Part shown: piece after piece, positions 3,568 to 40,823 of the stretch | How the letters are laid out: each line of letters begins with the position of its first letter | How positions within the stretch are numbered: the stretch's first letter is position 1 | Assembly: GCA_903848275.1 (NCBI GenBank) | Contig: CAINGB010000043.1 | Coordinates: forward strand, 1-41,298 | DNA from: Candidatus Uhrbacteria bacterium | GTDB lineage: Bacteria > Patescibacteriota > Patescibacteriia > UBA9934 | DNA: 41,298 bases | Reading direction: 5' to 3' | Made by a program: the position numbers and the translations under genes | The notes under the pieces: generated by a model | Seen by the model: only the letters and a program-made list of their open reading frames with translations | What the model was told of the DNA's origin: nothing | Database searches by the model: none

Positions 3568-4650
3568 ATGATTATTTTAAAAACTTGGAAGGCTGGTGAT
3601 ATTAAGCGTGGCACGAGGGTGCTATTGCGAATTGATGCCAACGTCGACCTAGTGCGTGGTCGAGCGGTAATCGGCAAACATGATAAGATTGCCAAGGCCT
3701 TGCCGGAGATTTTAAAGTTACAAGCGCGAGGTGCGGCGATTATTATCATGACGCATTTGGGACGACCGCGCGGGAAGCAGACGGAGTTTAGTGTAGCGCC
3801 GATTGCTAAGGCGATGGGGAAGGCGCTCGGGACGAAGATTGCGGTAGCAGAAGACGTGGTTGGGAAGGACGCTTTAAGATTAGCGTCGACGATTAAACCC
3901 GGGCAAATAATAATGCTGGAAAATTTACGATTTGATAAACGGGAAGAAGCTAATGATGAGACGTTGGCTGAGTTGCTGGCGAGTTTTGGTGATGTTTATG
4001 TGAATAATGCGTTTGGGGTTTGTCACCGGGCCCATGCCTCGGTGGCGGCAATAACTAAGTTTTTGCCGAGTTTTGCCGGCGGCTTGTTGGTAGAAGAAGT
4101 GAAGCAGTTGTCAGCACCAATGAAGAAGCCGTTTGTGTTGATAGTTGGTGGAAATAAGTTGGAGACTAAGGTGCCGTTGTTGTCGACGCTCGGCGTGAAA
4201 GCAGATTTGGTGATAGTTGGTAGTGGGCTGTTGCCAGCTTTTAAGAAGGGGCGCTTGTCGACGGAAGCAAAAACGGTGATTGATTTACTTGGCGATAGGT
4301 TGCGCTTGCCGCTTGATACGAGAGTCAATCAAAAAGGCAGTGTGATAGATCTTGGACGAGCAACGGAACAAATTTTGCCGACATGGTTGCGGGGGGCGAA
4401 GACGATAGTTTGGAATGGACCGGTCGGCTTGGTGGAGGAGCGAGCAGGTGCGGCGGGGACTAAGGCATTAATGAAGGCGATTGTTGGCGTGCATGGAGCG
4501 CGCAGCATTGTGGGCGGTGGATCCACCGTGGCGTTGGTGGAAAATAGTACTTTTGCTAGTAAATTTACTTTGCTCTCCACAGGCGGTGGGGCCATGTTGG
4601 AGTTTTTGAGCGGGGCGAAGATGCCGGGTTTAGAAGGACTGAGGGGTTGA
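3568..4650 (+). CDS. pgk: Phosphoglycerate kinase
   Basis: Pgk transfers the phosphate of 1,3-bisphosphoglycerate to ADP. Visible family motifs are VLLRIDANVDL near residue 20 (usual form RxDxNVP), THLGRPRG at about 62-69, MLENLRFDKREEAND, the substrate loop VNNAFGVCHRAHAS, GGNKLETKVPLL at about 194, WNGPVGLVE at about 282 and the glycine-rich nucleotide loop SIVGGGSTVALVE at about 313. At 360 residues it is shorter than the usual 390-400, with shortening spread over loops rather than loss of a domain. It is the last gene of the gapA operon. Its TGA stop at 4648-4650 lies inside the TTGACT element assigned to the next gene. Confidence 0.95.
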   Translation: MIILKTWKAGDIKRGTRVLLRIDANVDLVRGRAVIGKHDKIAKALPEILKLQARGAAIIIMTHLGRPRGKQTEFSVAPIAKAMGKALGTKIAVAEDVVGKDALRLASTIKPGQIIMLENLRFDKREEANDETLAELLASFGDVYVNNAFGVCHRAHASVAAITKFLPSFAGGLLVEEVKQLSAPMKKPFVLIVGGNKLETKVPLLSTLGVKADLVIVGSGLLPAFKKGRLSTEAKTVIDLLGDRLRLPLDTRVNQKGSVIDLGRATEQILPTWLRGAKTIVWNGPVGLVEERAGAAGTKALMKAIVGVHGARSIVGGGSTVALVENSTFASKFTLLSTGGGAMLEFLSGAKMPGLEGLRG

Positions 4651-4675
4651 CTTTTTGGCGAATCTTAGTTAGGTT
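4647..4675 (+). promoter_or_regulatory. Putative promoter of the 4744 gene (TTGACT -35)
   Basis: TTGACT at 4647-4652 overlaps the pgk stop codon. A 17-base spacer leads to TAGGTT at 4670-4675, a weak -10 match. The same TTGACTTTT string stands upstream of the paralogue at 6334, and TTGACTT upstream of the minus-strand gene at 22608. Repetition before three genes of similar composition is the main support. Confidence 0.45.
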
Positions 4676-4680
4676 TTAGG

Positions 4681-4712
4681 GGCTCGAGTAGTTCGAGCCT
4701 GGTTCTTTAACA
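4681..4712 (+). promoter_or_regulatory. Leader hairpin followed by boxA-like antitermination sequence
   Basis: A 7-bp hairpin (GGCTCGA at 4681-4687 with TCGAGCC at 4693-4699) is followed at once by GGTTCTTTAACA at 4701-4712. The latter matches the E. coli rRNA boxA TGCTCTTTAACA at 10 of 12 positions. The order hairpin then boxA is that of rrn leaders (boxB-boxA). It lies 31 bases before the start codon of the 479-residue protein. Confidence 0.5.
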
Positions 4713-4743: not shown

Positions 4744-6183
4744 ATGGCTGGACGAATTGTACGACGGCACGGCAAGAAGAAACTGGTTCTGACCAACGCA
4801 GGGATGGATCTGCTGATTGCCAAGGGGGAGCATACGGCGGTGACGCTGTTGATGGCGGCCTTGCTGAATGCTGACTGCGTTACCTACTCGCAGCTGATCC
4901 ATAAGCTGCGGTGGCCGACGAGCGAGTTGCGCGACACTACTTCGGCTACCAGCAAGCATCTGTCCATGGTCAGCCAAGCGGGCAAGATTGACCCGGCGAG
5001 CATCGTTGAGGTGTTCTCGATAATGTCTGTGCCGCTGCTCGATGGTTACAACCTGAAGACCGAACAGCGCGTGATGACGACGGCCGACTATGTGTGCGGT
5101 GCGGCCGCTTATCTCAATCGATTGTTCCGTACGGGCAAGCTCGGCGGACGGGACATTTGGAGCGAGGTGCAGAAGGAGTCGCCTTCGCAGGCGGTGCTCG
5201 AAGCGCTTATGCTGGTGGTACAGCCAGCTATGCGTGACCCACAGAAGTCACAGGTGATCATGCCTGAGTCGCTCCAACGGAACTGCCAGGCCTACGGACT
5301 GACCTTGACCGGCAACTGTGCGGTGACGTTGTACGACCTGTTGGCCGACGAGCTGGAGGCGTTGCGTCAGGCTGAGTTGGCGCAGGCGCGGCAGACGGTG
5401 GAGTCGGAGGTGGCAGCCGTGCTTGTTGACGAGGTGTCGGTGGTGACTGAGCCGCTGGTGGAAATTGTTCCTGCGAGCGCAGTGACGGAGGTTGCAACGA
5501 TGTCCGCTGTGACAGAACCGACCGCCGAGCCGACGACCGAGACGGTTGAGCAATTGCCTACGGTGATCAGCACCACGCCAGTTAAGGCGGAGATCTACCG
5601 CGTGGTCAAGGCCGTGTTGATGGAGCTGGAGGCTACTGGTTGGCCGCCTGGCAAGCTCGACATGAACTTGCTGAAGGGGGCTGTGCGGTTGGTGCAGCCG
5701 AACTGCTTGCAGCCGGCGACGGTGGTGTCTACGATGAAGGGCGTGTTCTGGGGGCGTGTCAGTCGGGGCTTGTATCAGATGAGGGATGTCTCGGTCAGTA
5801 TCGAGGTCGGTCAACCCAAGGTGGTGCCAGTAAAGGTGACACCAGCTCAGGTGCGGAAGTTGGTGACAGCCCTGAAGACTGGCAAGTTTGAGCTTGAACC
5901 TGAGGTCGAATCTGAGGTGACGACCAACCCGGAGAACACACAGGAGGTCTTCCGGCGCCTGTTGCAGGGCCAGGTCAGGGAGCAGGAGCAGGGATTGCAG
6001 CAGCGACAGGTGGAGCTGGAGCAGCGGGAGCGGAACCTGGTCAAGGTGCAGGCAGCAATCGACGCGGCCCTGACCAGGAAGGCCGAGATGGAGGCGGATT
6101 TGGTAGTTTGGCGCGTTGCCAATGAACCGCTCATGACGGTGGCGGTGGAGAAGCTCAGCCACTTACGGGCTTTGCTCAAGTAA
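4744..6183 (+). CDS. Uncharacterised protein, short paralogue of the two-gene GWP-repeat family
   Basis: I do not recognise this 479-residue protein. It has four visible parts. Residues about 12-200 form a domain that aligns along its whole length with the N-terminus of the next gene (shared features: LVLT, SKHL, KIDP, QRVM, AD, YLN, RP/QPA, YGLTLTG). A linker rich in Val, Glu, Thr and Pro follows (about 205-275). One copy of a repeat of about 115 residues is marked by GWP at 299-301. The C-terminus (about 395-479) is a Gln/Glu-rich coiled coil ending in HLRALLK, shared with the paralogue. The pattern of hydrophobics and the SKHL...DGYNL ending in the N-domain weakly recall a winged helix; that is inference. 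GAGGAGG before the ATG is a strong ribosome binding site, rare in this window. Codons are richer in third-position G and C than those of pgk or murD. Confidence 0.9.
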   Translation: MAGRIVRRHGKKKLVLTNAGMDLLIAKGEHTAVTLLMAALLNADCVTYSQLIHKLRWPTSELRDTTSATSKHLSMVSQAGKIDPASIVEVFSIMSVPLLDGYNLKTEQRVMTTADYVCGAAAYLNRLFRTGKLGGRDIWSEVQKESPSQAVLEALMLVVQPAMRDPQKSQVIMPESLQRNCQAYGLTLTGNCAVTLYDLLADELEALRQAELAQARQTVESEVAAVLVDEVSVVTEPLVEIVPASAVTEVATMSAVTEPTAEPTTETVEQLPTVISTTPVKAEIYRVVKAVLMELEATGWPPGKLDMNLLKGAVRLVQPNCLQPATVVSTMKGVFWGRVSRGLYQMRDVSVSIEVGQPKVVPVKVTPAQVRKLVTALKTGKFELEPEVESEVTTNPENTQEVFRRLLQGQVREQEQGLQQRQVELEQRERNLVKVQAAIDAALTRKAEMEADLVVWRVANEPLMTVAVEKLSHLRALLK

Positions 6184-6211
6184 GCGTTCGTGCTCGTGGT
6201 TAGCCACGGGT

Positions 6212-6252
6212 GACCGGGTGGGTGCAGTTGCACTTGCCCGGTCTTTATTTTA
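6212..6252 (+). terminator. Intrinsic terminator after the 479-residue protein gene
   Basis: Fifteen bases at 6212-6226 pair fully with 6229-6243 across a 2-base loop (GACCGGGTGGGTGCA with TGCACTTGCCCGGTC, three G-T pairs). TTTATTTTA follows. Confidence 0.9.
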
Positions 6253-6281
6253 TTGACTTTTCGTCTAGTGATAGGCAAGAT
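6253..6281 (+). promoter_or_regulatory. Putative promoter of the 6334 gene (TTGACT -35)
   Basis: TTGACT at 6253-6258, a 17-base spacer and CAAGAT at 6276-6281. The -10 is weak. The TTGACTTTT string is identical to the one at 4647. Confidence 0.45.
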
Positions 6282-6282
6282 A

Positions 6283-6314
6283 GGCCCGTTCTTTAACAAA
6301 TACTGGCTCGGGCC
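6283..6314 (+). promoter_or_regulatory. boxA-like sequence within a leader hairpin
   Basis: CGTTCTTTAACA at 6287-6298 matches rRNA boxA at 10 of 12 positions and shares the 11-mer GTTCTTTAACA with the leader at 4701. GGCCCG (6283-6288) and CGGGCC (6309-6314) are perfectly complementary, so boxA would lie largely in the loop of a hairpin here rather than after one. Confidence 0.5.
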
Positions 6315-6333
6315 AGTTACCAAGGAGTTCGTC

Positions 6334-9300
6334 ATGAAGGGCTTTACTTACGATCAGTACAGTAGCGGTAAGACGGGCAAGGATGTGTCGAAGTCAACTG
6401 ACGGTTTGGTCTTGACCAAGCTGGCGGTTGAATTGCTCAGGGAAGTTGGCGACTACAAGGTGTCGGCCTTCCTGCGGTTGGCTTTGCAGCACACGGAGTG
6501 CTTCACCTTTGATGAGTTGGTGGAGGTTTTGTTCGAAGAAGACAAGTGGCTTGGTATGGACTTGAAAGACACAGTGTCTGTGGTGAGCAAGCACTTGCCA
6601 CTTGGCAATAAGATCGATCCGCCGGGCATCATTCAGGTGCTGAAGGCGGCTGGTCTGACTGTGGGCCAGGGCTACCACGCGAGCAACGATTTGCAACGAG
6701 TCATGTCGCCCGCCGACAGGGTTCGAGCCGAGGCTGGGTACTTGAACAAGATCTACCGCCGCGGATCTCTCATGACGTCAGATCTGGAAGAAGATTTGGC
6801 GGACAATCTGGTTTCGCCGGCGTCGTTGCCGCTACTCGAGCAGTTGGTGCGACCGGCTGTGCAAGACAGGCCGGTGGGTAGTATTAGCAAGCCGTTGTTG
6901 CAGGCAACTTGTCAGAAGTATGGGCTGGTGCTGACCGGGGATGGCGACTTTACGTTGGCCGGTTTGTTGCGTGACCAGTTGGATTACTTGTGTCGTATTT
7001 GTGGTAAGCCGCCGCTCGAGGTAGCGGCGATCAATGTTGACCGAGCGCGGGTCCAGTTGAAGAGGGCGCAGGGTACGGTCAATCAGGCCAAAGGCCATGA
7101 GTTGGCCGCCGCTCGTGATGCGGTCAAGAAATTGGCGACGACGCTGTTGCAAGCTGAGGAACGTCAGCGCACGGTCCAGGCTGAAGAGGCGGCGAAGCCT
7201 CAAGTCCCGACGGGAAATTCGGCCAAGTTGACGGTGAGCAAGGTGGACATGGAGACGCTAGTCACCAAGGTTCAGCAAGCGAGTCAGACGTTGGCTACGA
7301 TGTTGGCTGAGGTTGGTTGGCCTGCTGGTTTGTTGCCGCGGACTTTGGTGGTTGACCTGGTGTCGGCGCTGAAGACCAAGGATATGAGCGCGACATTGAT
7401 TGTCAACCAGATGATGAGCAATGGGTTGACGCGGTTGCCACGTAGCGAAGGCTTGCCGCTGGTTCTGCGTTTGGGAGAAACGCCGCAGTCTGAGGCTAGG
7501 CTCGCGTTGACCAAGCGCGAGATTGAGAAGATGGCCCAGGCGTTTCTGGATACTGATGATCGCGTGATTCACCATCTGCAGTACATTCTGCGGTACGAGC
7601 CTGACACGGTTATTGGGGACGGGTTGCGTGAGTTGCTCGGACCGGTCAAGTCGGCTAGGCAAGTGGCGGCGCGGCAACGAGCGGCGGAAGAAGCTGAGCT
7701 GGCGGAACGCGAACGACAGGAGGCGGAAACGGCAGTAGTAGTTGTGCCGACGCCGACGGTCAAGATCAAGACTGTGCGGATGGCAAAACCAGCCAAGCCG
7801 TTGGTGGTGCTCAAGAGTGAAGTAGTTGTACCGACGGTGGCTGAAAAGCCGCCGGAGGACCCGCAACGAGTGGTCAAGGGATCGCGTATTGGGGCTGAGT
7901 TGCACCGTGCAAGTGGTTGGTTACTGCTGTCGCTTGAGGTACAGGGTTGGCCAACTGGGGTGCTGCTTGGCTCGTGCTTGCTCGAGTTGGTCAAGCAGAT
8001 TTTGCCAAAAGCGCCGTACCCGGAGGTGATCGTCAACAATTTGGCAGGGCATGGCTTTACTGGCCTCTTCACTCGCAAGGGCAAGGAGTCGATCTTGCGA
8101 CGTTTGGTGGTGACGGTTGATACCAGCGAATCGTCCAATGTTGTAGTGCCGCTCATTTTGGCGCGAGCTGAGATTGACGCACTCGCGGCGCGGATGGTGG
8201 CCGATACGGTGAAGTGGCAGGCCGGCTTGGAACACATCAAGCGGTTCGCGCCGCATGCACTGCAGGTTGTGGTTGAGGTCGAGCCGGCGGTGGAAGCCGT
8301 GGTGGAAGCCGTGGTGGAGACCGAGGTTGTGATCGAGGCGGTGACGGAGGGTGAGGCGGTAGTAGTTGAGTCGACGGTTGAAGAGACTGTCGAGTTGGTT
8401 GCTGCTGCGCTCGAAGAAGTTCCTGCCGAGCTGGTGCCTGTGGCCAGTGCGGTGCTTGAAGAAACAACTGTTCCTGAGGAGGAAGAAGTCATGAGTGAGA
8501 ACGTGAACGAAGTGTCGGCGCGAACGGTGCGTTGTTCGCCGGTGGCGGCGGAGTGTCACCGGGTGGCTGGCGTGTTGCTCGAATGGTTGAAGCCGCACGG
8601 TTGGCCAGATGCAATCGTGACGAGTACCGTCATGCAGAAGGTGGTCCTATTGGTGCGACCTGACAATCGCTACCCCGGAGTTGTCATCAACAACGAGATG
8701 GTTGCCAGGGGTTTGACGCCCTTGTTCTACCGTGGTGGTCGCCAGTCGGTCTTCAGGCGAGATTTGGTGACATTTGACACGGAGAGTGTGACCGTGAGGT
8801 TGCAGCCTCGAATCGTGCCTGACGAGGATGTACGGGCGTTGGCTGAGTCTTTGTGGGCTGACAAGGCGTGGTGGGATTCCACGTTTGACTATCTGCGGAA
8901 GTGGGTACCGCAGGTGATGGCCAGCAGCGAGGTGGTGATTGGGGAAGCTGAACCGATTGTTGGAGTGGAACCTGTTACGGCGCCGTCGTCAGTGATGGAG
9001 GCCGTGTCGGAGCCAGTACACTTTGATCTGCCCACCGAACCACTGGTCATCGAGGAAGAGCAGGTGGTGGTGGTCGAGCTTGAAGCCCCGACGGTTGTGG
9101 AGGTTGAGGCTGCCAGTGTGCCGGTGGTTGAGGCTTCGCTCGTGCCCGCTGAAGCGCCGGAGAGTGAGGAGCGGCGGCTGTTCCAGCAGATGATCGAGGC
9201 CATCAATGAGCAACGTCGAGTACGTGCACAGGAATGGCAACGTCGGCAAGATGAGGTGGCAGAGAAGTTGCGTGAAGCTGAAGAACTGAAGTTGGCGTTG

Positions 9301-9387
9301 ACCACTTGGGAGCTGAGCAACGAAAAGCAGATGAATCGTGAACTTGAGAAGATGCTGCACCTGCGGGCGCTGCTGAAGCTGTCGTAA
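6334..9387 (+). CDS. Uncharacterised protein, long paralogue with three GWP repeats
   Basis: The product has 1017 residues and no family that I recognise. Residues about 20-225 match the N-domain of the 479-residue paralogue. A charged helical stretch (about 233-290) follows. Three copies of a repeat of about 115 residues come next, marked by GWP at 328-330, 538-540 and 756-758. Copies 2 and 3 share P-x-V-I/V-x-NN, then GL/GFT-L-F and a RR-L-V-T-x-D-T ending. The copies are joined by long Val/Glu/Ala/Pro-rich acidic linkers. The last 80 residues form a coiled coil ending in LTTWELSNEKQM...HLRALLKLS, shared with the paralogue. There is no signal peptide or membrane segment, so it is probably cytoplasmic. 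The ATG at 6334 has AAGGAG 7 bases upstream. Alternating folded repeats and linkers suggest a multivalent binding scaffold (inference). Confidence 0.9.
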   Translation: MKGFTYDQYSSGKTGKDVSKSTDGLVLTKLAVELLREVGDYKVSAFLRLALQHTECFTFDELVEVLFEEDKWLGMDLKDTVSVVSKHLPLGNKIDPPGIIQVLKAAGLTVGQGYHASNDLQRVMSPADRVRAEAGYLNKIYRRGSLMTSDLEEDLADNLVSPASLPLLEQLVRPAVQDRPVGSISKPLLQATCQKYGLVLTGDGDFTLAGLLRDQLDYLCRICGKPPLEVAAINVDRARVQLKRAQGTVNQAKGHELAAARDAVKKLATTLLQAEERQRTVQAEEAAKPQVPTGNSAKLTVSKVDMETLVTKVQQASQTLATMLAEVGWPAGLLPRTLVVDLVSALKTKDMSATLIVNQMMSNGLTRLPRSEGLPLVLRLGETPQSEARLALTKREIEKMAQAFLDTDDRVIHHLQYILRYEPDTVIGDGLRELLGPVKSARQVAARQRAAEEAELAERERQEAETAVVVVPTPTVKIKTVRMAKPAKPLVVLKSEVVVPTVAEKPPEDPQRVVKGSRIGAELHRASGWLLLSLEVQGWPTGVLLGSCLLELVKQILPKAPYPEVIVNNLAGHGFTGLFTRKGKESILRRLVVTVDTSESSNVVVPLILARAEIDALAARMVADTVKWQAGLEHIKRFAPHALQVVVEVEPAVEAVVEAVVETEVVIEAVTEGEAVVVESTVEETVELVAAALEEVPAELVPVASAVLEETTVPEEEEVMSENVNEVSARTVRCSPVAAECHRVAGVLLEWLKPHGWPDAIVTSTVMQKVVLLVRPDNRYPGVVINNEMVARGLTPLFYRGGRQSVFRRDLVTFDTESVTVRLQPRIVPDEDVRALAESLWADKAWWDSTFDYLRKWVPQVMASSEVVIGEAEPIVGVEPVTAPSSVMEAVSEPVHFDLPTEPLVIEEEQVVVVELEAPTVVEVEAASVPVVEASLVPAEAPESEERRLFQQMIEAINEQRRVRAQEWQRRQDEVAEKLREAEELKLALTTWELSNEKQMNRELEKMLHLRALLKLS
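8477..8493 (+). promoter_or_regulatory. Internal Shine-Dalgarno and in-frame ATG inside the 1017-residue gene
   Basis: AGGAGG at 8477-8482 stands 8 bases before an in-frame ATG at 8491 (codon 720, reading M-S-E-N). Initiation there would give a 298-residue product with the third GWP repeat and the coiled coil, a layout like the last part of the short paralogue. The AGGAGG also encodes glutamates of the acidic linker, so it could be a coincidence of codon choice. Confidence 0.35.
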
Positions 9388-9408
9388 AGTCCCGCGCGGC
9401 GGGCAACT

Positions 9409-9449
9409 GGGACCAGATGTGTGTAAATGCATCTGGTCCCGATTTTTTT
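9409..9449 (+). terminator. Intrinsic terminator after the 1017-residue protein gene
   Basis: A perfect 11-bp stem (GGGACCAGATG at 9409-9419, CATCTGGTCCC at 9430-9440) with a 10-base loop is followed by GATTTTTTT. Confidence 0.95.
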
Positions 9450-15645: not shown

Positions 15646-16449
15646 ATGATAAAGAAATCGATCATGTGGACGACGGTGTTTGTGTTCTTGGCGCTGGGGA
15701 GCGTGTGGTTTATGTTTAGCGCGAACCCGGAAGAGAAGATGGTGCAGAGTACGGATGGCGAGGTGACGGTAACGGGAGTGGCGAAAGCGAGCGCACCACT
15801 CCGGGTGGTTACGGTGACGGATGCAATACCGATGATTGCCAGCGGTGGTACGTCGATCAATAAGAGCTATAGAATCATGCCGGATGCTACGCTACTCGCT
15901 AAGCCGGTGGTATTGACGTGGCAGTTGAAGGATTTGTTGGTGTCGGCCAGTGAGGTAGCCGTATATAGGTTCAATGAGGATTCCTTGATGTGGGACATGG
16001 TGCTGCCGATCGTGGCCTATAGCGACACTATGTTGGCTGTGGAAACGTCGACCTTGGGCGTTTTTACGCTAGGTAAAAAAGAGACGGTGACGGTACCGCA
16101 ATTCATTGATGTTTATAAAGATATTTTGGTTAGCAAGCCGGTGGGGGCGGTTGGTTTTGTGACGACGGTTGGGTACGTACGAGCCTCCCCTAGCCCCTCC
16201 ATAACTGGAGGGGGATCTATCATGCGATTACCGAGTGTGGGGCAACAGGGCGGATGTGGAGGGGCAGTTGAACCAGGTGTGACTGAGCAGAAGTCAACGG
16301 TGACGCGAGACGTGACTTTACTCGTCGACGATGTGCAGACTAAAGTGACGCTGACATTTTTTACGCGTTGGATGATGGGTGATGGTTGCCCTGTGGATTC
16401 TCCGTTTCAGTCGTCGTCGAGCTATGGTATACTACCGATATCAAATTAA
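15646..16449 (+). CDS. Uncharacterised membrane-anchored extracytoplasmic protein
   Basis: The 267-residue product has a positively charged N-terminus and one hydrophobic segment (about residues 7-26, IMWTTVFVFLALGSVWFMF), a signal anchor or signal peptide. The rest has no further membrane segment. Residues about 70-145 alternate hydrophobic and polar residues like a beta-sandwich, including PVVLTWQLKDL, AVYRFNEDSLMWDMVLPIV and LGVFTLGK; this recalls the ZU5/beta-sandwich modules of secreted proteins but is not diagnostic. Around residues 183-190 a GC-rich palindromic stretch inserts Ser/Pro/Gly-rich sequence. Two cysteine-containing stretches (GGCGG and GDGCPVD) follow. Function unknown. Confidence 0.75.
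   Translation: MIKKSIMWTTVFVFLALGSVWFMFSANPEEKMVQSTDGEVTVTGVAKASAPLRVVTVTDAIPMIASGGTSINKSYRIMPDATLLAKPVVLTWQLKDLLVSASEVAVYRFNEDSLMWDMVLPIVAYSDTMLAVETSTLGVFTLGKKETVTVPQFIDVYKDILVSKPVGAVGFVTTVGYVRASPSPSITGGGSIMRLPSVGQQGGCGGAVEPGVTEQKSTVTRDVTLLVDDVQTKVTLTFFTRWMMGDGCPVDSPFQSSSSYGILPISN
16183..16216 (+). repeat. Palindromic element read through in frame
   Basis: CCTCCCCTAGCCCCTCC is followed by a 6-base loop and GGAGGGGG. CCCCTCC (16194-16200) pairs perfectly with GGAGGGG (16207-16213). It lies inside the 15646 gene without breaking the frame. Its C-rich then G-rich character differs from the surrounding coding sequence. Confidence 0.5.
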
Positions 16450-36491: not shown

Positions 36492-37085
36492 ATGGAAGAG
36501 TTAGAACCTGTAGTCGCTGTGAAAAAAGTAATTTCGCCAGCGATAATTTTGCCAATCATCGCTGTGATCATTGTAGCTGTTATTATTTTTGCTTCTCGAA
36601 AAGAGAGCGAAGTGCCAGCTGTGGCAGAAAAAGCAGCCACGACCACGGTGGCTGATAATGATACAAGTGCCAGTGGCCAGGCGGAAGCGGATAATGATGA
36701 AGATAATGCCGGTACGGTGCCAGCGCCTACGCCAACACCGGTAGTGAGTACGAAGACTACTCCTACTACCACAACGCAAACTAATACCACTTTTGCAAAC
36801 GGCACTTATTCGGCGGTTGGCAATTACTATTCACCCGAGGGATCCGAACAGATTAATGTTACCTTGACGCTTAAAGATGGTGTGGTTACGGCTAGCACGG
36901 TGACGGCGATGGCGACACAGCGCTATTCGTTAACTATGCAGAACGACTTTATTGCTAATTACAAGACGTTGGTGATTGGTAAGAAGATTACGGATATTAA
37001 GCTTGGTAAGGTTTCTGGTGCTTCGTTGACGCCGATTGGTTTTAATGACGCGGTGGCTAAGATTGAAGCCCAGGCAAAGGTTTAA
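36492..37085 (+). CDS. Membrane-anchored FMN-binding domain protein, predicted ApbE substrate
   Basis: The 197-residue protein has a short N-terminus, one membrane segment (about 16-34, PAIILPIIAVIIVAVIIFAS), and a long Ala/Thr/Pro/Asp-rich linker (about 38-100). A C-terminal FMN-binding domain follows (FANGTYSAVGNYYSPEGSEQINVTLTLKDGVV onward). Residues 175-180 read SGASLT, which fits the flavinylation motif (S/D)GA(S/T)x(S/T); Thr180 is the expected site of covalent FMN. The flavin transferase gene starts 5 bases downstream, which strongly supports this. The domain should face outward and carry electrons between membrane carriers and an external or envelope partner. Confidence 0.85.
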   Translation: MEELEPVVAVKKVISPAIILPIIAVIIVAVIIFASRKESEVPAVAEKAATTTVADNDTSASGQAEADNDEDNAGTVPAPTPTPVVSTKTTPTTTTQTNTTFANGTYSAVGNYYSPEGSEQINVTLTLKDGVVTASTVTAMATQRYSLTMQNDFIANYKTLVIGKKITDIKLGKVSGASLTPIGFNDAVAKIEAQAKV

Positions 37086-37089
37086 TTCT

Positions 37090-37968
37090 GTGTTTCGTCA
37101 GTTGGTGTTTGAGGCGATCGGCACTCATTGGATCGTAGACATTGTTGAAGATCTAGACGGCGGGTTGTTTGAGTCTCTTGAACGAGCTATTCACGAACGA
37201 ATCGAAGAGTTTGATAAGAATTATTCACGTTTCCGACATGATGGTTGGATTGAGAGATTAGCAACGCAGGCTGGCACTTATGAAGTGCCAGCTGATGCGG
37301 GGCCGCTTTTGGCTTTGTATGAGAAGGTTTATCGAGTTACTGAAGGAGCAGTGACGCCGTTGATTGGTCAGGTGCTAGTGGACGCTGGTTATGACGCTGA
37401 GTATTCGTTACAGTCGAAGAATGAGCTGATGAGACCGCCGAGATGGGATGAAGTTATAGAGTATAAGTATCCGCTGTTAACGATGAAGAAGCCGGCGGTG
37501 TTGGATTTCGGCGCAGCAGGGAAGGGGTATTTGGTCGATTTGATAGCTGAGCTCATTAGTTCTTTTGGCGTAGCTTCGTTTACGGTTGATGCGGGCGGCG
37601 ACATGCGTCACCAGAGTTCAATCAACGAAGTGCTGAAAGTTGGCTTGGAGCATCCAGAAGATACATCATTGGCGATTGGTGTAGCTGGGTTAGGCAACCG
37701 AAGTTTATGTGGTTCGGCTGGGAGTCGGCGAAAGTGGGGAGAGTATCATCACATTATTGATCCGCGAACGCTCACTTCGCCACGTAATATCCTGGCGGTG
37801 TGGGTAATGGCGGAGAGTACCATGTTGGCTGACGCTATGACGACCTGCTTATTTTTTATGGAGCCGGAGAAGGTTAGATCAGAGTTTGTTTTTGATTATT
37901 TGATTATGTATGCCGATTATTCGGTGAGTAAGTCGGCAGGTTTTTCAGCGGAGTTATTCACTGCTTGA
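37090..37968 (+). CDS. apbE: FAD:protein FMN transferase (ApbE)
   Basis: ApbE attaches FMN covalently to a Thr or Ser of target proteins outside the cytoplasm, using FAD. The 292-residue product shows the family motifs DKNYSRFRHDGWIERLA (usual FSxYxxxSE), PAVLDFGAAGKGYLVDLI near 137-150 (LDxGGxxKGxxxD), SFTVDAGGDMR, LCGSAGSRRKWGEYHHIIDPRT and the metal-binding MLADAMTTCLFFM. I see no signal peptide or lipobox, which is unusual for an enzyme acting outside. GTG at 37090 was chosen because it lies 4 bases after the upstream stop. A frame from 37036 would overlap the substrate gene. Confidence 0.92.
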   Translation: MFRQLVFEAIGTHWIVDIVEDLDGGLFESLERAIHERIEEFDKNYSRFRHDGWIERLATQAGTYEVPADAGPLLALYEKVYRVTEGAVTPLIGQVLVDAGYDAEYSLQSKNELMRPPRWDEVIEYKYPLLTMKKPAVLDFGAAGKGYLVDLIAELISSFGVASFTVDAGGDMRHQSSINEVLKVGLEHPEDTSLAIGVAGLGNRSLCGSAGSRRKWGEYHHIIDPRTLTSPRNILAVWVMAESTMLADAMTTCLFFMEPEKVRSEFVFDYLIMYADYSVSKSAGFSAELFTA

Positions 37969-38042: not shown

Positions 38043-40823
38043 ATGATAACTAATCATAAGGGTCGCCGTTTTACGAGCGGAGTCTTCCTGTTCTCGGCAT
38101 TGATGGTTTTTACTACGTTCGCCGCCGTGGTCATCATGAGTTCGTCACCATTGCGGAGTTGGATTACGCAGGTGTCATTGCATACGGCGGGTATTAGTGA
38201 CGTCGCGGCTGACGCCCCGGTAACCGCGGTGAGTTTGGGGTCGGCAAATATTATTGAGTTGATGGGCGAGGTGACGCTTGATGCGACCGGTATTAAGGTG
38301 ATTACTGCAGGAGATGTTAACAATGATGGTTATGATGATTTCTTGATAGGCTCGAAGACTAATGATGATACTGGCGTGAATGCTGGAGCGGCTTATTTGG
38401 TATATGGTCGGGCAGCAGCGTTAACAGCGGGTAGTTTGGGTGGTGGGGCGAATACGGTAGTTGAGTTTACGGGTGAGGCGGCTAATGATTATGCCGGAAC
38501 AATCGTCGGTCCAGCGGGTGATGTCAATAACGATGGTTATGATGATTTTCTCATTACATCCTATCAGCCAGGACCAGGGGTGGGAAACGGTCAGACTTAT
38601 TTAATTTACGGTCAGGCGGCTGCTTTTGCCTCTAACGTGAGTTTGGGTGCAGTTGGTATAGTGAAGTTTACTGGCGAGGCATTGAATGATTTTGCGGGGG
38701 CGATGGCTAATGCGGTGGGGGACGTGAATAAAGATGGCTACGACGATTTTATGATCGGGGCGACTGGAAATGATGATGTAGCACTGAATGCTGGGGCAGC
38801 TTATCTGATTTACGGACAAGCGGCGCCCTTGGTTTCTGCTAGTCTCAGTACAGCGATTGAGTTTGCTGGGGAAGCCGCAGCTGATGCAGCTGGTACGAGC
38901 ATAGCCGCTGGAGACTTCAATAATGATGGGTATAGCGACATGCTTATTTCCGCGCCTACGTATGCGGCTAATAATTTGGGCCGAACGTATTTATTTTACG
39001 GAAAGGCGGCCGCCTTTACTTCGGTTAATTTGAGTACAGCGGATGCGACTTTTACGGGCGAGGTAGCGGAAGATGCGACTGGAGTCAATATTGGATTAGC
39101 AGGTGACGTGAATAATGATACCTACCAAGATATCTTGATTGGTTCGACTGGGAATGATGATGCTGGTGCTGGTGCTGGTGCGGTTTATCTTATTTACGGT
39201 CAAGCTTCGGCGCTGGCCTCGGCGAGTTTGAGTACAGCTATCGAATTTACAGGAGAGGCGGCCGGCGACGCAGCTGGTAATTCGGTCAGTGGAGCAGGAG
39301 ACATTAACGGTGATGGTTATAGTGACTTCCTGATAGGTGCGCCACTGAATGATGAAGCTGGGGCGGATGCTGGAGCTGCGTATTTGGTTTACGGTAAGGC
39401 AACGACCTTCGTCTCGGCCAGTTTGAACACCTTTGTGGAGTATTCCGGTGAGGCGGCTGGGGATAGGGCTGGTAATAGCGTTAGTAATGGTGGGGATATT
39501 AATAATGACGGCTATAATGATGTTTTGATCAGTAGTCGCTTTAACGACGATAACGCGGTGGATGCTGGAGCGACCTATGTAATTTATTATCAGCCGCCAT
39601 ACGTATCCTTGTCGGCTGCGACACAAACATTAGATGAAAGTGCGGCTTCGGGGACGATAACCGCGCAGATCACCAATACTTTCCCGTATACTGTAGCTAT
39701 TCCGTATACAGTAGCTGGAACCGCGACTGGTGGGGGGACGGACTATACGTTGGGGGCTGGTAGTTTGTCGATTGCGGCTGGAGCTCTTAGTGGAGATATT
39801 TCATTTACTATTTTCGATGATCATATTCATGAACTGGATGAGACCATGATAGTGACTTTGGGCCGTCCAAGCTATGGAACGTTGTCCGGGACAACTCTGC
39901 AAACTATTACCATTACGGATAATGATAATCCATCGAAAGTAATTAGTAATCCAGCTACCACCACCGCGAAGACGCTAACTGTTTTGACGCCGACGATAGC
40001 CACGGAGATTATTGAAGGCGCGACAATGAGAGTGACTTGGAACTATACAGGCGTGATTCCGGCAGTATCGGTGTACATGTCGACGAACGGGGGGACGAGT
40101 TGGACAGCGATGCGGACTAATATTGCTAATGAAGGGTCGACGACGTTTGCGGCACCTTTTGTGACGACGAGTCAAGCTTTGGTGAAAGTTGAAGGAACTG
40201 ATTTGGCAACAGTGTTAGCAACCGGGATCAGCGATCCATTTTATTTGCTGAAGGCGGCCGGTGACGTACCCGTTGAGACAATTGTCATACCGGAGGCTCC
40301 GTCTACCTCGGTAAGTGGTGTGACGGAGGCAGAGGCAAGAGTTGCGACTTGGCCAGTAGCCGTGAAAGCAGACACGCTTATTAAGATGCGCGGTGATGGA
40401 GATGCAGCAACTACGGCCGATGCGGTAGTCTACTTCCTAGCGGCTGACGGCTATCGTCATGCTTTCCCAAATGAGCGCGTTTACTTCACCTGGTATAGGA
40501 ATTTTGACAATATTGTTAAGATTTCGGCAGCTGATATGGCTAAAATTGCCTTGGGTAGTAATGTGACGTATAGACCAGGGACTAGGATGGTGAAGTTTAC
40601 TTCGGGAAATAAGGTTTACGCTGTGGACCGGGGCGGGGTGCTCCGTTGGGTGACGACTGAAGCGGCAGCGCGAGTATTGTATGGTAACGATTGGAATACT
40701 AGGATTGATGATATTTCTGATGCCTTGTTCGGTAGTTACAGTTTTGGCCCGATTATCAATGCACAAGTTGACTATAATCCCAATGGATTCACTGACGTGA
40801 TTAATCCTGGAGATTCGCTGTAA
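38043..40823 (+). CDS. Secreted FG-GAP beta-propeller / Calx-beta surface protein
   Basis: The 926-residue protein has an N-terminal signal or anchor (about 15-32, FLFSALMVFTTFAAVVIM). Seven FG-GAP repeats of about 65 residues follow, each with a calcium loop such as DVNNDGYDDFLIG (near residues 90, 159, 226, 290, 354, 419 and 484), so a seven-bladed integrin-like propeller. A Calx-beta domain comes next (about 522-630, SAATQTLDESAASGTI to TITITDNDNP). A beta-sandwich (about 643-735, TPTIATEIIEGATMRVTWNYTG) follows. The C-terminal 150 residues (AVVYFLAADGYRHAFPNERVYF, VTYRPGTRMVKF, KVYAVDRGGVLRWV, LYGNDWN) form a domain I associate with secreted CPR proteins. Probable role in adhesion or cell-surface architecture. 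Confidence 0.93.
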   Translation: MITNHKGRRFTSGVFLFSALMVFTTFAAVVIMSSSPLRSWITQVSLHTAGISDVAADAPVTAVSLGSANIIELMGEVTLDATGIKVITAGDVNNDGYDDFLIGSKTNDDTGVNAGAAYLVYGRAAALTAGSLGGGANTVVEFTGEAANDYAGTIVGPAGDVNNDGYDDFLITSYQPGPGVGNGQTYLIYGQAAAFASNVSLGAVGIVKFTGEALNDFAGAMANAVGDVNKDGYDDFMIGATGNDDVALNAGAAYLIYGQAAPLVSASLSTAIEFAGEAAADAAGTSIAAGDFNNDGYSDMLISAPTYAANNLGRTYLFYGKAAAFTSVNLSTADATFTGEVAEDATGVNIGLAGDVNNDTYQDILIGSTGNDDAGAGAGAVYLIYGQASALASASLSTAIEFTGEAAGDAAGNSVSGAGDINGDGYSDFLIGAPLNDEAGADAGAAYLVYGKATTFVSASLNTFVEYSGEAAGDRAGNSVSNGGDINNDGYNDVLISSRFNDDNAVDAGATYVIYYQPPYVSLSAATQTLDESAASGTITAQITNTFPYTVAIPYTVAGTATGGGTDYTLGAGSLSIAAGALSGDISFTIFDDHIHELDETMIVTLGRPSYGTLSGTTLQTITITDNDNPSKVISNPATTTAKTLTVLTPTIATEIIEGATMRVTWNYTGVIPAVSVYMSTNGGTSWTAMRTNIANEGSTTFAAPFVTTSQALVKVEGTDLATVLATGISDPFYLLKAAGDVPVETIVIPEAPSTSVSGVTEAEARVATWPVAVKADTLIKMRGDGDAATTADAVVYFLAADGYRHAFPNERVYFTWYRNFDNIVKISAADMAKIALGSNVTYRPGTRMVKFTSGNKVYAVDRGGVLRWVTTEAAARVLYGNDWNTRIDDISDALFGSYSFGPIINAQVDYNPNGFTDVINPGDSL

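Follow-up and report, generated by a model that had tools for sequence, protein, structure and literature searches.

We propose, with a probability of roughly 0.45, that two adjacent genes of Candidatus Uhrbacteria, termed A and B here, encode soluble intracellular scaffolds of the beads-on-a-string type which oligomerise and carry winged helices for multivalent docking. The head domain and the winged-helix beads, the latter marked by the motif GWP, would serve as docking modules, acidic linkers rich in valine and glutamate would hold these beads apart and mobile, and a C-terminal helix would join chains into oligomers. Because chains would be joined in this way, one assembly could display many docking sites, with one GWP bead per chain contributed by A and three by B. 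Oligomerisation and multivalent docking are suggested by structural models. We regard a nucleic-acid-associated complex as the most likely target, which would be reached either via the modestly basic wings of the beads or via a protein partner.

Both genes are located in the window, i.e. the whole stretch of 41,298 nucleotides that was analysed, which represents contig C43 of the 985-kb source genome (G000; 48 contigs, 99.3% complete). The features of A and B described below are on the plus strand. The two open reading frames are real and have the coordinates given in an earlier note on this DNA: gene A (4744..6183) encodes 479 amino acids comprising a head, a linker, one predicted GWP winged helix and a coiled-coil tail, and gene B (6334..9387) encodes 1017 amino acids comprising a head, three linker-borne GWP winged helices and a coiled-coil tail. 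Translation of B starts at ATG 6334; the TTG at 6253 selected by the program that listed reading frames sits inside a promoter-like TTGACT. The beginning of the window has the gene order EF-Ts, GAPDH, DoxX, NADH dehydrogenase-like flavoprotein, PGK, A, B, SIMPL-domain protein and enolase, where PGK and enolase are putative identities based on reading of the sequences. A and B are coding sequences: when A was compared with A2, its orthologue in the related genome G002, dN was 0.29 and dS 1.05 and the third codon position was the most variable one. Broken down by part, dN/dS was about 0.18 for the head, 0.23 for the GWP domain, 0.49 for the linker and 0.46 for the tail. This pattern points to purifying selection on head and GWP repeats (about 0.2) and to weaker selection on the linker (about 0.5).

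A TTGACTTTT-17-hexamer element is present just 5' of each gene (TTGACT-17-TAGGTT at 4647..4675 for A and TTGACT-17-CAAGAT at 6253..6281 for B). Both promoter-like elements score below the threshold of the consensus scan, and the element is found at the same place in all five gene copies of three genomes. An intrinsic terminator with a 14-pair stem and a T tail is located between A and B (6212..6243; folding z -5.8), and another one past B (9408..9441). Given that each gene has its own promoter-like element and is followed by a strong terminator, we infer that A and B form two monocistronic units. The only two sites in the window that match TTCTTTAACA (0.07 expected) are those in the leaders of A and B (4703-4712 and 6289-6298); the sequence, which is also present upstream of A2 in G002, resembles the boxA of rRNA operons. 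A role in boxA antitermination was rejected because the 16S leader of the genome does not contain the site, which is also not kept in B2, the long protein gene of G002, or in H1.

A and B are paralogues, as had been claimed in the earlier note; this is borne out by head and repeat profiles, and a search for a third paralogue elsewhere in the genome found none. The heads comprise amino acids 1-211 of A (4744..5376) and 1-223 of B (6334..7002), that of B being 36% identical to the A head and 28% to the head of B2. Every head was recovered by a leave-one-out profile with 92-147 bits within the genus as compared with at most 4.6 bits for shuffled sequences, and the N-terminal domains of A and B are thus homologous. 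A single GWP domain is present in A (amino acids 276-385; 5569..5898) and three are present in B: repeat 1 (301-430; 7234..7623), which is the most diverged and scored 35.5 bits leave-one-out, repeat 2 (513-643; 7870..8262; 95.6 bits) and repeat 3 (731-862; 8524..8919; 85.1 bits). All of them were recovered by profiles built without the repeat in question (34-96 bits, the A-type repeats at 34-43 bits), while the best score among 200 shuffled copies of each was 11.7 bits. Repeat 3 of B and the final repeat of B2 share 78% identity. B2 contains two GWP repeats as opposed to three in B, which supports a change in the copy number of the repeat.

The structure of A was predicted with AlphaFold2 (AF2) from an alignment of 12 rows that combined sequences of the window with those of relatives (mean pLDDT 73). 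In this model the GWP domain (274-353) has the order strand-helix-strand-helix-helix-strand-strand-strand, with pLDDT values mostly around 83-95. An independent AF2 job for repeat 2 of B (pLDDT 87.9, pTM 0.83) yielded the same winged helix followed by two C-terminal helices. These models support the view that GWP repeats are winged helices with a three-helix HTH core and a beta-hairpin wing. The lists obtained with Foldseek against the PDB for A and for repeat 2 of B were dominated by winged helices, among them MCM8, TubR, ArsR-type proteins, BlaI, PadR, Cdt1, forkhead, ESCRT-II and C-terminal domains of kleisins, yet all scores were insignificant: the best E values were 0.19 for repeat 2 and 0.03 for A, neither model had a match below E 0.001, and a viral fold library gave nothing below E 0.1. 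Accordingly, the models support the fold class and not membership of any particular winged-helix family. They share with the winged-helix fold the order strand-helix-strand-helix-helix-hairpin and differ from it in a helix 3 that is hydrophobic instead of basic and, in repeat 2 of B, in the two extra C-terminal helices. Contrary to one possibility considered in the earlier note, namely that the GWP repeats have no fold relation to each other, they share predicted fold and homology.

The head of A is mostly helical in the AF2 model and contains a helix-helix-helix-hairpin unit at amino acids 32-82 which resembles a winged helix; confidence is lower beyond residue 100. The head is predicted to be partly helical and is possibly of the winged-helix type. 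The earlier suggestion of winged helices in the N-terminal domain was close to the mark in that it fits this unit, and it is the GWP repeats that are predicted to be winged helices as well. Head and GWP domain as two versions of one domain were considered and rejected (hhalign probability 0.2%).

Between these modules, the linkers rich in valine and glutamate are acidic, as expected from the earlier note (pI 4.1 for both amino acids 212-275 of A and 644-730 of B). That of A (5377..5568) is mostly predicted to be disordered, with pLDDT below 50 at amino acids 225-271. The tail of A (5899..6180) is modelled as one helix at amino acids 397-478 (pLDDT mostly above 85), and that of B (8920..9384) consists of an acidic linker and a coiled-coil-like end with the motif LRALLK. 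A coiled-coil tail common to the family was only partly corroborated: BLAST aligned A and B in this region (34% identity over 76 amino acids, E 2e-5), but leave-one-out scores were as low as 7 bits (A), 20 bits (A2) and 26 bits (B), and B2 was not matched at all. The hydropathy maximum over 19 residues is 1.5, and there is no stretch hydrophobic enough for a membrane anchor, which suggests that the proteins reside in the cytoplasm.

The earlier note had also raised the idea of a multivalent scaffold that binds nucleic acid. A multivalent and probably oligomeric protein fits the anatomy of A and B well, with AF2 winged helices in A and in repeat 2 of B, linkers that are acidic and disordered, one long helix in the tail and a lack of membrane segments; the oligomerisation part is deduced from one predicted helix. 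The nucleic-acid part is weaker. A typical recognition helix that enters the major groove of DNA is basic. When the model was mapped on eight repeats, the net charge of the loop plus helix 3, the presumed recognition helix, ranged from -3 to +1, and that of the wing from 0 to +3. As helix 3 lacks the basic character of such a recognition helix, it gives no indication of DNA binding by GWP domains, which is possible but unproven. Moreover, repeat 1 of B is acidic (pI 5.7), protein B as a whole carries a net charge of -34, no fold match is significant, and the gene neighbourhood says nothing about nucleic acid. What speaks for a nucleic-acid-associated target are the basic GWP domains of A (pI 10.0) and of repeats 2 and 3 of B (9.6 and 8.7), the slightly positive wings, and the fact that most of the weak Foldseek neighbours function in nucleic-acid transactions or as parts of chromosome complexes. 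The selection acting on head and repeats is in line with the proposed scaffold function.

The same features bear on a rather unlikely but serious alternative in which the winged helices serve solely as protein-protein modules and A and B are adaptors that connect enzymes or complexes with each other and make no contact with nucleic acid. The winged helices of kleisin C-terminal domains and ESCRT-II, both of which are among the weak Foldseek neighbours, work as protein-binding modules. The non-basic, hydrophobic helix 3 (P-x-V-V-V-N type) and the acidic total charge would also suit adaptors. The basic wings of several repeats argue against this explanation, as do the Foldseek neighbours, most of which bind DNA, although this is the commonest use of the fold. 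Tandem winged helices of kite proteins can mediate dimerisation and protein binding (PMC4989898), which places the adaptor explanation close behind that of a scaffold directed to a nucleic-acid-associated complex.

No significant match was found in Pfam, NCBIfam, PHROG or PDB sequences. The full architecture did not match a characterised family in any library searched, and the statement that A and B belong to no known family was upheld. The prokaryotic E2 family E (PF14462) scored 14 bits, which is under its curated cut-off of 25. At the sensitivities used, no homologues were detected in phages, viral contigs or plasmids (IMG/VR, INPHARED, PHROGs). One strong PHROG match (1.4e-19) comes from a single alignment member and is probably caused by the SIMPL part of a fused reading frame in genome G001 (see below). 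A pattern scan of GTDB contigs returned nothing for A.

Profiles of head and GWP repeat were applied to 73 genomes of the order and to 380 genomes of the phylum, and the head profile also to 381 genomes of the class. Four members of the same genus were compared (G001 to G004). Both genes are present at the same place in G002, where A2 is about 61% identical to A and B2 has 849 amino acids. G004 has a B-like long gene that is truncated at a contig end, only a head is left in G001, and G003 has no gene of the family, PGK adjoining SIMPL directly. In most other genomes of the order that were examined, PGK and enolase are close together without A or B genes between them. Beyond the genus, the sole good match is the head of a 356-amino-acid protein in G027 (Candidatus Uhrbacteria UBA10169, DNYJ01000004.1), which belongs to another family of the same order. 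This match is backed by the profile search (E 3e-11), by hhalign (probability 96%, E 1.6e-9 over nearly the full length of the head), by 41 bits leave-one-out and by a reciprocal match to G001 (E 9e-7); in the pattern scan of GTDB contigs the protein retrieved its own record only. A GWP domain in the G027 protein, suspected from similarity by eye, is not claimed here since hhalign gave no alignment (probability 0.3%) and the profile no match. A class-level head match in G480 (E 0.008) was discarded as noise because the long reading frames at that locus encode an ABC transporter. On the evidence of these searches, the family is almost genus-specific and is being lost in sister species. The G027 homologue (L078:9832-10902) is directly followed by a gene for a UvrD/Rep-like helicase and has a Nuo/hydrogenase-like membrane complex on its upstream side, both being tentative labels based on reading of the sequences.

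Divergence within the genus is uneven. The A heads of G000 and G002 share 73% identity and their B heads only 28%, while the DNA preceding B, with its terminator and promoter-like element, is 80% identical over 260 bp and that around repeat 3 is 76% identical over 635 bp. The head of B2 is nearest to the G001 head (49%); the B head of the window is 38% identical to the G001 head, 36% to the A head and 28% to the B2 head. To judge from these alignments the long gene is a mosaic with well-aligned flanks and a sharply different head, and the block from head to repeat in B appears to have been either exchanged or to have diverged far faster than its flanks, the putative breakpoints being near 6334 and upstream of 8300. 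In G001, a reading frame of 457 amino acids (L010:8614-9987) joins a head in frame to the SIMPL-domain protein. Directly after this head comes the second half of a hairpin that resembles the terminator preceding SIMPL in G004, and the SIMPL promoter region follows. Due to the position of the junction in that hairpin half, a designed fusion was rejected and the arrangement reads as a deletion scar.

It is tempting to speculate that A and B represent a fast-turnover, genus-specific scaffold family whose head block and bead number are swapped or lost between species amid conserved flanking DNA and which would give Patescibacteria a modular means of diversification, perhaps directed at partners from phages or host cells, but we regard this as doubtful. 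Equally doubtful is the view that A and B belong to a family of conflict genes (for phage defence or counter-defence, or as cargo of mobile elements) that is under diversifying pressure and was inserted between PGK and SIMPL. Such an origin would agree with the genus-restricted, patchy distribution including loss in sisters, with a head that is sharply diverged or replaced between flanks still 76-80% identical, and with a different composition: GC3 is 0.77 in A and 0.68 in B as compared with about 0.5-0.57 in neighbour genes, AAG accounts for 92% of the lysine codons of A and B (68% in neighbours), and TTA is nearly avoided. This composition is compatible with a foreign origin or with a distinct mutational history, and is proof of neither. 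The lack of matches in phages, plasmids, IMG/VR and PHROGs, the absence of an enzymatic domain and of integrase or defence genes among the annotated neighbours, and the identical chromosomal place in G000, G001, G002 and G004 all count against a conflict role.

Quite improbable is a role of A and B as kleisin- or kite-like partners of SMC. The C chain of a MukBEF structure, which we take to be MukF, heads the Foldseek list of A (E 0.03), kleisin C-terminal winged helices recur in the list for the single repeat, and the order of parts in A is loosely MukF-like (an N-terminal winged-helix-like and helical region, a flexible linker, a C-terminal winged helix). However, TM-scores of about 0.1 (0.10-0.11 for the MukBEF C chain) and 0.3-0.5 fall short of a match, kleisin profiles including PF02616 gave no match in Pfam or NCBIfam at E values up to 1, and A/B proteins differ from kleisins in their coiled-coil tail and in having as many as three winged helices per chain. 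A canonical ScpA is encoded by a separate gene of the same genome (contig C25) and in 24 of the 24 relatives searched. The A/B genes are absent from most relatives. The presence of ScpA together with the poor TM-scores weakens the kleisin idea, and a substitute for the SMC kleisin was rejected. Least probable of all are functionless, drifting genes on their way out: G001 is reduced to a head fused to SIMPL and G003 lacks the genes, but head and repeats have a dN/dS of about 0.2 when G000 is compared with G002, and promoter-like element and terminators are kept.

KfrA-like plasmid proteins combine a DNA-binding N-terminus with a long coiled coil. A and B resemble them in that a domain of a DNA-binding type is followed by a coiled coil, and they differ in having repeated winged helices and a chromosomal location; KfrA_N (PF11740) scored 10.6 bits, well below its cut-off of 26.1, and aligned to the tail region and not to the head. 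In Patescibacteria, 6,987 genus-specific gene clusters of unknown function have been described (PMC9132574). Like these, A and B are genus-restricted and without annotation, and a genus-restricted family of this kind is ordinary in the phylum. By contrast, architecture, predicted fold and turnover have been worked out for A and B, and a distant head is known from another family of the order. What sets the family apart is a repeat architecture in which the number of winged helices varies, together with its mosaic pattern of divergence. With the parts, the repeat fold, orthologues and a natural truncation in hand, binding and oligomerisation by the proposed scaffolds can be tested domain by domain, and if the head block was truly exchanged between species, the family would illustrate how proteins can diversify by modules in a reduced genome.

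Several other features of the genome deserve mention. The window encodes a protein of 926 amino acids with seven FG-GAP repeats and a Calx-beta domain (38043-40823), whose gene adjoins one of the ApbE family (37036-37968). Two more window proteins are without any Pfam match (15646-16449, 267 amino acids; 36492-37085, 197 amino acids). Finally, the 16S rRNA gene is present in pieces on two contigs (C24:6585-7271 and C30:58297-58902), and model positions of about 707-874 were not seen; the split is probably an assembly break and possibly an insertion.
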